Below are positions 10,432 to 15,545 of a stretch of DNA of 64,000 nt, in pieces. Below the pieces are notes generated by a model. The model was not told the DNA's origin. It was given only the letters and a program-made list of their open reading frames with translations, and did not search any database. The stretch covers positions 186,001 through 250,000 of the forward strand of contig NZ_CP024962.1 of the NCBI RefSeq assembly GCF_002804205.1. Reading direction: 5' to 3'. Within the stretch, counting starts at the first letter, position 1. The number at the start of each line of letters is the position of its first letter. Source of the stretch: Entomoplasma freundtii. Its GTDB lineage: Bacteria > Bacillota_I > Bacilli_A > Mycoplasmatales > Mycoplasmataceae. The position numbers and the translations under genes are program-made.

Positions 10432-10487
10432 CTCCGAAAACTATTAAAATAAGGTTATTATTGCTTATGTTATCGTGAGGTTCTCTT

Positions 10488-11456
10488 ATGATTGATAATC
10501 CTAAAAACAAAAACCTATCACCAACTTCAATTAGGCAACAAGTAAAACAAGAAATAAAGTTATTAACTAATGATTACCAATTTAAACATCGTCTTTACCA
10601 ACAACAGTTGTTGAAAGATATCGAATTTGTGGTGCTTGATCATCGTCAAAAGGGCAACTATAAGCGTAGTTACCAAAATCGGACCGATTTCAAAATGGCT
10701 GAGTTAACCGCCATTTGTGACTATTATGTTAATTTAGATCAACAAAAGGTGACCTGAATTAGCAAAGAACCAGATATTAAGGCAAAACAGACCAATAAAT
10801 CAGCACATCAAACGAAAAATCGGGAAAGTCTATGAACTAATAAATATTTAATTATTGATTTTGAAACAGCTAACAAGCACTCTACTAGTGCTTGTCAAGT
10901 CGGGATTATTGTTGTAGAGAATAACGAAATAGTTTGGCAATACGAAACTTTAATCCAACCTAAGCCAAATTACTTTGCTCCAATGAATATTCGCATTCAT
11001 GGAATAAACAATGCTACCGTGGCCCAAGCTCCCAGTTTTATAGAAGTTTGGGCAAAATTAGAGCCTTACTTTAATGGTCAATATATTATTCTTGCCCATA
11101 ATGCCGCTTTTGACATTGATTGGGTTTTACGACCTACTTTGAATAGCCATAAAATCTCTGAGCCAAATTTTCTTTACGCTTGTACTTGACAAATGTACCG
11201 CCACTTGCGGACCTATGCCTCTTTTTCGCTCCACAATCTTGCCCAACAAAAAAACATTCGGTTCAAACACCATAATGCTCTTGAGGATAGTCTAGTTTTG
11301 CTTAAAATAATTAATGAAGATTTTGGCAATATTGAACATTTTTTTAAAGAAGCTATGGCGAATCACTACGAGCCTTTGGTTTTTCAAAAAAGCCTTAATG
11401 GTCAGTTACCCGATGAGACGAAAAAGGAAAAAGTTAAAAAGGTAAAGCCGAAATAA
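10488..11456 (+). CDS. DEDDh-family 3'-5' exonuclease (DnaQ-like)
   Basis: A 322-residue protein with an N-terminal helical region of about 115 residues and a C-terminal exonuclease fold. The four acidic residues and general base of the DEDDh family are visible: IIDFETAN (D, E), AHNAAFDIDW (D) and HHNALEDS (H, D). Such proteins proofread or trim DNA or RNA; this could be a stand-alone epsilon-like proofreader, but the unusual N-terminus leaves that open. ATG 10488 has GTGAGG seven bases upstream; an in-frame ATG at 10467 (through a TGA Trp) is possible but has a poorer ribosome site. The C-terminus is Lys-rich. Confidence 0.82.
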
Positions 11457-11493: not shown

Positions 11494-12342
11494 ATGAAAC
11501 TAAATAATGAAGTGACAAAAACAAGTCCTTTTAAAAACTTTTTGGAAAGTCTTACTTGAGTAGCGGATCAAAATTGGTTCGAAGGTCAAGTCGGTTTTGA
11601 ATCAGCGATTTTGGATGAAAGTGACATTTGGGCAACAATTATGGATGCTTATAATCCTCATGAGGTGACTCTTCCGTTGCCTGTGCCAAATTTAAGTCAA
11701 CAAATGATTGTGGTTCCTTGTGATGGTAGACCTTTGCGAAGCATTGGACGCTCAATTTCCAAATTACACCAACAAATTGGGATTATTCAAGTTAACTTTA
11801 AAGGTACTGGTTACCGAGTTTTATGAGGTTTATCAGAGAAAGTCCCACCTACTAAATTCCTAAACCAAATTTTATGGGCTCATAATGAGCGTTTAGCAAT
11901 CAATCCCAAACATAGAGTTTTGGCCTATTGCTTTCCTTCAAATTTGGATGCTCAAGCCTTTTTAACAAATAACAAAAGTGACGAAATGAACAATTTTAAC
12001 CACAAACTTTTCCAAGCTCATCCCAATTTAAACCTTTGGTTGCCAAATGGGGTGAGACTCCAGACTTTAAAGGAGCCGTTTGTCGTTTCGGCACCAAATA
12101 CTTGAACTGACAACTTAGCCCAAACCTCAACCATCATTTTTCCCGGGCAAGGTGTTTTAGTAGCTGCCAATGATTGAAATACCGCGATTACTATTCTTGT
12201 TAATTTGGATAAAGCGGCTTGAAAACTTAGCCAATGACCTGCTACCTTCCAACCTCGTTGAAGTAAAGACTATGTCGAAAAATTACGTGATGCCTTCGAA
12301 GAAACTTTGGCTAAAACTGACAAAAAGAAAGTAGAAAAATAA
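11494..12342 (+). CDS. Class II aldolase-fold protein related to rhamnulose-1-phosphate aldolase, metal site lost
   Basis: A 282-residue protein. Residues about 95-160 (GYRVLWGL, then HNER, then VLAYCFPSN) resemble E. coli RhaD (GYHILWGL, HCER, VIMHCHATN as I recall it), as does the C-terminal GQGVLVAANDW against HGVFGSG. The zinc-binding residues do not survive: the HCH pair is Y145 and F147, the third His is Q219, and the catalytic Glu falls at F122. It is therefore probably not an aldolase. It overlaps tsaE by one base (TAATG) and follows the exonuclease gene by 37 bases with a GGGAAGGG site, so it is co-expressed with both. Function unknown. Confidence 0.7.
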
Positions 12343-12776
12343 TGAATTTTAGTAAAGAAACAACTTATTTTTTAGAGGACTTGAGGGCTACACAAGTCTT
12401 TGCCCAAGAATTAGCAACTTTCCTTAGTAAGCAAAAACGGCCCTTTTATTTGTTGTTGACTGGGGACTTGGGAGCTGGAAAAACAACTTTGACAAAAGCG
12501 CTCATGAAAGCCTTAAATGTTCTCGACCCTATCACCTCCCCAACTTTCGTTATCTTAAATCAATATGAAAGTAGTGATAACCAGGTCATTAACCACATGG
12601 ATGCCTACCGGCTAACATTTGGTGAAGATTCATCAATGTATGAAGAATATTTTGCTGACAACCTCAACATTATCGAGTGACCGGAAAATTTAGCCTTAAA
12701 TTGGGAAGCTTTATCGCATTTAAAATTAGAAATTAAAATCGTTGATGAAAACCGTCGTCAAGTCACGATAAAATAA
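12342..12776 (+). CDS. tsaE: tRNA threonylcarbamoyladenosine biosynthesis ATPase TsaE
   Basis: P-loop ATPase that drives the TsaB-TsaD complex to make t6A37 in ANN-decoding tRNAs. It is 144 residues. Walker A GDLGAGKTT is at 41-49, followed by SPTF, HMDAYRL and IEWPE, all typical of TsaE; the Trp in IEWPE is a TGA codon. The start ATG overlaps the stop of the aldolase-like gene by one base and tsaB begins 5 bases after the stop, so translation is coupled. Confidence 0.94.
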
Positions 12777-12781
12777 TAGTG

Positions 12782-13354
12782 ATGAATTTATTTATTGATA
12801 CAGCCAATGGCCGATTAGTTTATCTATTAGAAAAAGACAACCAAGTGGTTGACCTTTTTTTGTCAGCTCCAACCAAAAAAATTAGTGATGAAGCAATTCA
12901 CCAATTGAACCTTTTTTTGACCAAAAATCACCAAAGCTTGGCTTTGATTGAGAATTTCTATGTGACGACTGGTCCTGGAAGTTATAGCGGAATTCGTGTT
13001 GGTTTAACACTAGTGAAAACCGTTAAGGCCATTTCACCCCAAACCAATATTTATTTAATTTCTTCATTATTATTTCAAGTCGGCTTGGCAAAAGGCATTT
13101 CACTTCTGGATGCTCGTGGCCAAAAAGTTTTCTATGCTGTCTATAATCAAGCAAAATTATTAGAGGGGCCTTCCCTGATTGAAAAAGAATCTATTGAAGT
13201 AGTTAATGAACCATGAGCAAAAAAAGGCTATAAAATCTTTGAAGATAATGCTACTCTCGATTATAAAAAAAACTTTTTAGCTTTAAAAGAACATTTTCAA
13301 CTTGCCAACTCCATTAGCGATATTAAACCACTTTACTTAAAGGGGTATTTATAA
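12782..13354 (+). CDS. tsaB: tRNA threonylcarbamoyladenosine biosynthesis protein TsaB
   Basis: Non-catalytic ASKHA-fold partner of TsaD. It has the N-terminal IDTANGRLVYLL and the family signature TGPGSYSGIRVGLT. At 190 residues it is shorter than E. coli TsaB (about 230), as is common in mollicutes. The start is taken as ATG 12782; GTG 12779 immediately before is an alternative. There is no clear ribosome site, consistent with coupling to tsaE. Confidence 0.9.
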
Positions 13355-14795: not shown

Positions 14796-15545
14796 GTGGC
14801 ACAGAAAAAGCGCAAGCATCAAACCAAGTTATTTCGTTGACGGCAAAAAGACCTTGACCAAGGAGTTCTAGAGAGCTTTTTTAATACGCTTTTTTTAACT
14901 AATAAAAGCGAAAAGAAAAAGACTCTAGCTCTTTTTAAAAAAACTCATGTCGACTCCTTACTCTTTTATACCGATGTAAGAAATTTGCCTAATATTTTAG
15001 AGCATGGTCTAAGGCCTCTCAAAAATTTAAAACTTCAACCTCATGAAATTTACTACGTTTGATCATTTGATCAAGATGAAGAAATGGTTAGTTTAGAATT
15101 TGATATTTCTTCACGTGGTAATTTTTGAAAATGGACAACTGGTCTTGATTTTAATCCAGAACAAATCGTCACAATCGGGATTAACCCTAAGCGTTTAAGT
15201 GAACTAACCCAAAAGGACTGACTTCTGGATTGAGCTCAAAATATGGTGATGATTTCGGAAGATATTTATATTGAAACTTTTGATTGAATTTTAATTCAAG
15301 ATGTTTATGCTTATAAACAAGTTCGCGATTTTTTAATAAAGCACCAATATCCGATTGATCTTTACTATGGAAATAATGGCATTGTTAAAATTCAAAGACA
15401 ACCAGGTTTGCATGCCAAATCAGACAAAAGTGAAGTTGATGAAAAAACTCAAAAAACTAATTCCAGTCAGGATCTAACAAATCTTGAAAACCCTCAAAAA
15501 GAAGAATTTAATAAAGGAGAAAATAATGGCGAAACTAATCGATAA
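14796..15545 (+). CDS. DarT-like (DUF4433-type) protein, tentative
   Basis: A 249-residue frame opened by GTG with GGGGTGA six bases upstream and TATAAT at 14767-14772. It reads through seven TGA Trp codons, which is why it is easily missed. Residues about 55-80 ([18 protein letters not shown]) resemble the opening motif of DarT ADP-ribosyltransferases, and [13 protein letters not shown] near residue 155 could supply the conserved Glu. The last 45 residues are polar and low-complexity. No DarG macrodomain antitoxin is adjacent. The stop lies 20 bases inside proS, so the two genes are translationally coupled. It is certainly a gene by frame and context; the family call is inference. Confidence 0.6.

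Follow-up and report, generated by a model that had tools for sequence, protein, structure and literature searches.

What maintains a protein with the fold of rhamnulose-1-phosphate aldolase (RhaD) but without the RhaD active site directly in front of the tRNA modification gene tsaE, in a genome of only 838,114 bases? The gene that raises this question lies at 11494..12342 (+) of the window (the whole stretch of 64,000 nucleotides of Entomoplasma freundtii DNA analyzed; G+C, 34.8%) and encodes a protein of 282 amino acids. The family to which it belongs is named here TRL, for tsaE-linked RhaD-like protein. Its frame is open under genetic code 4, with seven in-frame TGA codons read as tryptophan; table 11 was rejected for this frame because the TGA codons would interrupt it. 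The stop codon of TRL (TAA, 12340-12342) overlaps the ATG of tsaE by one base (TAATG), confirming the intact, overlapping frame described in an earlier note made from the sequence alone. The tsaE gene, encoding the t6A synthesis ATPase (12342..12776, +; Pfam TsaE, 4.6e-31; intact Walker A motif, GDLGAGKTT), is followed by tsaB (12779..13354, +; TIGR03725, 7.9e-18; Pfam TsaD-family, 1.4e-5). The upstream neighbor of TRL encodes a DnaQ/RNase_T exonuclease (10461..11456, +), and a P-type ATPase gene occupies this place in other TRL genomes.

Profile and structural comparisons indicated that TRL is a descendant of RhaD and, by descent and fold, a member of the class II aldolase superfamily. The window protein matched two rhamnulose-1-phosphate aldolase models in NCBIfam (PRK03634, 3.5e-21; TIGR02624, 5.4e-20) and E. 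coli RhaD in the PDB (6e-15, phmmer), and the alignment of the TRL and RhaD profiles by hhalign extended over 269 columns (probability, 100; E, 1.4e-46), in keeping with the likeness to this aldolase that had been noticed earlier. With Pfam Aldolase_II, the family to which the earlier note had pointed, the result was divided: four of the six TRL proteins matched (best, 3.9e-14), but the window protein on its own did not, and its place in the class II aldolase/adducin superfamily follows from the link between the TRL and RhaD profiles. The AlphaFold2 models of the window TRL and its M. seiffertii orthologue were of middling confidence (mean pLDDT, 69.6 and 67.5, respectively), and the best solved Foldseek match of both was E. 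coli RhaD (E, 3e-20 to 6e-20; TM-score, 0.69-0.75). The Foldseek matches of the TRL models also included the spectrin-actin junction entries 8iah and 8iai, which presumably hold adducin. TRL resembles E. coli RhaD (PDB 1GT7/1OJR) in whole-length homology, predicted fold, and the shared GYxxLWG and PT motifs, whereas the WMxPG segment, conserved in RhaD, has been lost. The other branches of the superfamily (RhaE, FucA, AraD, and MtnB) matched TRL far more weakly than RhaD did. In the tree, the split between TRL and RhaD was supported by 100/100, with the window TRL as the most diverged member (branch, 2.15). The scores of the window protein fell under the curated equivalog cut-offs (PRK03634, 75.5 versus 170 bits; TIGR02624, 71.8 versus 401 bits), and TRL, although it has the RhaD fold, stands outside RhaD by its residues, its score, and its genomic context.

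E. coli RhaD coordinates its zinc through His141, His143, and His212, and Glu117 matters for catalysis (PMC3870299). These four residues, together with Asn32, Ser116, and Glu171, were retained in all 25 canonical RhaD proteins aligned. We take Glu171 to be a second catalytic residue and Asn32 and Ser116 to be further residues of the active site. In the window TRL, the column of Glu117 holds Phe122 (codon at 11857..11859, +, as positioned from the residue number), those of His141 and His143 hold Tyr145 and Phe147 (Y145-C146-F147, 11926..11934, +), and that of His212 holds Gln219 (12148..12150, +). phmmer, MAFFT, and hhalign all gave these same columns, so that the substitutions read earlier from the bare sequence stand, with no profile alignment placing His residues elsewhere in the pocket. 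Further losses were found at Glu171 (N178; 12025..12027, +), Ser116 (K121), Asn32 (F35), and Asn29 (Q32).

A search of 60 genomes of the family identified a TRL orthologue in five further genomes belonging to two other genera: M. seiffertii, A. multilocale, and G018, referred to here as the seiffertii group, and M. lactucae and G005, the lactucae group. Asn32, Ser116, Glu117, and Glu171 were lost in all six TRL proteins, whereas the His triad was kept in all three members of the seiffertii group and lost in the lactucae group (Y/S/Q) and in the window TRL (Y/F/Q). The loss of the metal ligands, which had first drawn attention to this protein, is therefore not a property of the whole family, whereas the loss of both catalytic Glu residues and the linkage to tsaE are. 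Changes from His to Tyr and from His to Gln each need one base, which would make a parallel loss of the triad easy. In the M. lactucae TRL (L048:6001-6945), the C terminus is extended by about 35 residues in which Lys, Thr, Pro, and Ala are abundant (KPRVVKPKTIKEKTTKPATKPATKKPKADKNA), a tail that the other TRL proteins lack.

The genomic context also separates TRL from RhaD. TRL directly precedes tsaE-tsaB in all six genomes, with a stop-to-start gap of about -11 to +9 bases; at 24 canonical RhaD loci inspected with 1.5-kb flanks, by contrast, rhaA or rhaB adjoined RhaD in 23 and tsaE in none. No rhaA was found in any of the six TRL genomes, whereas both RhaD-bearing relatives have it. In these two family genomes (L007, L008; G033, G007), the canonical RhaD adjoins rhaA; rhamnose genes thus occur in Mollicutes, sporadically in this family. 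In several relatives lacking TRL, a P-type ATPase gene stands immediately before tsaE, so that TRL sits between two old neighbors; in the window genome, the orthologue of this ATPase is located about 120 kb away (G000:C1:76213-77634), TRL having stayed with tsaE. The GC content of TRL (37.6%, versus 34.8% for the window and 33.7-37.0% for neighboring genes) and its GC3 (0.298, inside the neighbors' range of 0.256-0.368) led us to rate a recent horizontal gain low.

Searched with the TRL profile, neither 320 genomes from the order nor 392 from the phylum yielded a further TRL; the other matches scored like RhaD (the weaker ones were judged by score). A contig search with the window protein found nothing, an alignment search gave three named relatives, and no RhaD relative was found in the viral contigs searched. 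Several related lineages retain tsaE and tsaB but have no TRL, which indicates that TRL is dispensable for t6A. This distribution is consistent with a single gain at the root of the entomoplasma clade followed by several losses, the number of which is approximate, since the LepA tree resolves the order of the entomoplasma genera poorly.

Three side observations were also made. A 249-amino-acid open reading frame at 14796-15542 (+) of the window, labeled DUF14796, has no Pfam, NCBIfam, or credible PDB match, and its homologues lie between tsaB and proS in many family genomes; it is a conserved uncharacterized protein. The segment 4679-6234 holds 11 tRNA genes (Cys, Arg, Pro, Ala, three with a CAT anticodon, two Ser, Asp, and Phe), and the short open reading frames listed there are artifacts of tRNA sequence. 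One family genome (G066:C1:465241-480259) carries, within 15 kb, two tsaE copies above the cut-off together with a broken fragment of a third.

The pattern of conservation within TRL differed from that of RhaD. The ratio of N-half to C-half identity was 1.5-2.2 in all 10 TRL pairs, versus 0.67-1.29 (mean, 0.92) in RhaD pairs, and the invariant columns were distributed 25 to 7 between the N and C halves of TRL but 10 to 15 in RhaD (Fisher p, 0.006). This shift toward the N half held at split points 110, 126, and 140, was weaker at 90, and held in a TRL-only alignment. The residues invariant only in TRL include N4, D51, N54, P80, K90, H92, and N131, most such residues lying in the N half; K90-x-H92 (11761..11769, +), part of a short TRL insertion, is invariant in all six TRL proteins and found in none of the canonical RhaD proteins. 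The zinc site and Glu171 of RhaD fall in the C half. We read this shift as evidence that the function of TRL has left catalysis for a role that resides in its N-terminal half. Purifying selection was evident in the one close pair that gives a usable TRL value, M. seiffertii and G018, both of which keep the His triad: dN/dS was 0.05 (dS, 1.06) for TRL, versus 0.11 for tsaE and 0.11 for tsaB, which makes neutral drift unlikely for the seiffertii group. The remaining TRL pairs (0.20-0.55) are saturated and allow only a rough reading. In the window species, an unbroken frame and the invariant columns shared with the other TRL proteins point to a maintained gene, as the earlier note had supposed, and the orthologues form a kept gene family rather than a decaying copy.

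The loss of both Glu residues in every member, the missing pathway, the shift in conservation, and the evidence of selection together argue that TRL is a re-used protein that is no longer an aldolase. Our preferred reading, to which we assign a probability of about 0.6, is that TRL is a RhaD that has given up catalysis and now serves as a non-catalytic protein for binding or scaffolding, co-produced with TsaE and TsaB. An ancestral rhamnulose-1-phosphate aldolase would have lost its aldolase function before the entomoplasma lineages diverged, and a folded, very probably non-catalytic TRL would have been kept and translated together with TsaE and TsaB. Its N-terminal half may now bind a partner or a ligand. 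The partner or the regulated process might belong to the t6A pathway, through TsaE or TsaB; this is the least certain step. The gene order and close coupling suggest that TRL could act with these two proteins, but neighboring genes need not encode interacting proteins, and the lineages that have tsaE and tsaB without TRL weigh against such a partnership. Judged by its residues, TRL is likely non-catalytic and would perform no aldol cleavage; against this, metal chemistry is possible in the three His-keeping orthologues. No paper in the literature searched treated rhamnulose-1-phosphate aldolase together with Spiroplasma, and none of relevance treated TsaE together with an aldolase.

The class II aldolase domain of adducin offers a precedent for the preferred reading: it forms a tetramer, has no catalytic activity, and binds proteins (PMC12599920). 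In both cases, the fold would have been kept for binding without catalysis, as the residue losses suggest for TRL, and TRL may still form a tetramer of the RhaD type. Adducin, however, is eukaryotic and binds actin and other proteins; the two are not orthologous, and the loss of catalysis would have been independent. RhaE, of the same superfamily, has Asp at the Glu117 position but keeps the His triad and the pathway context (PMC3870299). RhaE demonstrates that this position can change, whereas TRL has in addition lost Glu171, Ser116, and Asn32 in all members, with the zinc ligands gone in three of six, and is linked to tsaE outside any rha operon.

The best surviving alternative, although an unlikely one, is that TRL uses the class II aldolase fold to catalyze a new reaction, which would depend on the metal kept by the seiffertii group and proceed without metal in the other members. 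The retention of the entire triad in that group, alongside the replacement of Glu117 by Tyr and Glu171 by His, would suit such an enzyme, and K90, H92, and N131, invariant only in TRL, might have taken on new functions. The class II aldolase fold also yields epimerases, dehydratases, decarboxylases, and Fe(II) dioxygenases, and pyruvic oxime dioxygenase, TqaM, NovR, and decarboxylases among the Foldseek matches of TRL likewise show that it supports many chemistries. However, the pocket residues vary by lineage (F/Y/R in the Glu117 column, N/H/D in the Glu171 column, and F/H/S in the His143 column), unlike a single conserved new active site, and the constraint has shifted off the catalytic half even among the His-retaining members. 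Of the pseudo-enzyme, sensor, and new activity put forward in the earlier note, the evidence favors a role without catalysis rather than a new activity, but is no proof of it.

That TRL is a sensor of a sugar phosphate or another metabolite, its pocket binding a ligand without turnover and tuning TsaE or the translation of the operon, appears improbable. The RhaD fold, the retention of Thr115 in all TRL members, and the adjoining gene for a t6A-pathway ATPase are compatible with such a role, whereas the substrate-side residues Asn29, Asn32, and Ser116 are changed in a lineage-variable manner and leave no conserved pocket signature. Even less can be said for a neutral relic that is being lost and whose frame stays open by chance or solely because its translation is coupled to that of tsaE. 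Although the absence of TRL from several related lineages and the strong divergence of the window member might be expected of a relic, all six frames are intact at 27-33% identity to the window TRL, the dN/dS value below those of tsaE and tsaB contradicts a relic in the seiffertii group, and tsaE lies directly behind other genes in relatives without TRL. A rhamnulose- or fuculose-type aldolase with relocated catalytic residues is scarcely credible: rhamnulose-1-phosphate aldolase is the best family match, but both Glu residues are lost, all three His residues are lost in half of the members, the scores are far under the equivalog cut-offs, and no TRL genome has rhaA.

Within the preferred reading of a re-used, non-catalytic TRL, a bolder and doubtful version can be envisaged, in which TRL, derived from a dead RhaD, serves the bacterial t6A machinery as a regulatory or structural subunit specific to its lineage, its N-terminal domain binding TsaE or TsaB and coupling tRNA modification to metabolism in near-minimal genomes. 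An automatic label of rhamnulose-1-phosphate aldolase would be wrong for the TRL genes. The intermediate stages within TRL, with both Glu residues gone in all members and the metal ligands retained in some, represent a natural series for the passage from enzyme to pseudoenzyme. Genomes of 0.8-1 Mb keep few passengers, and an intact, selected, apparently non-catalytic fold tied to a near-universal tRNA modification gene suggests a real, undescribed role.
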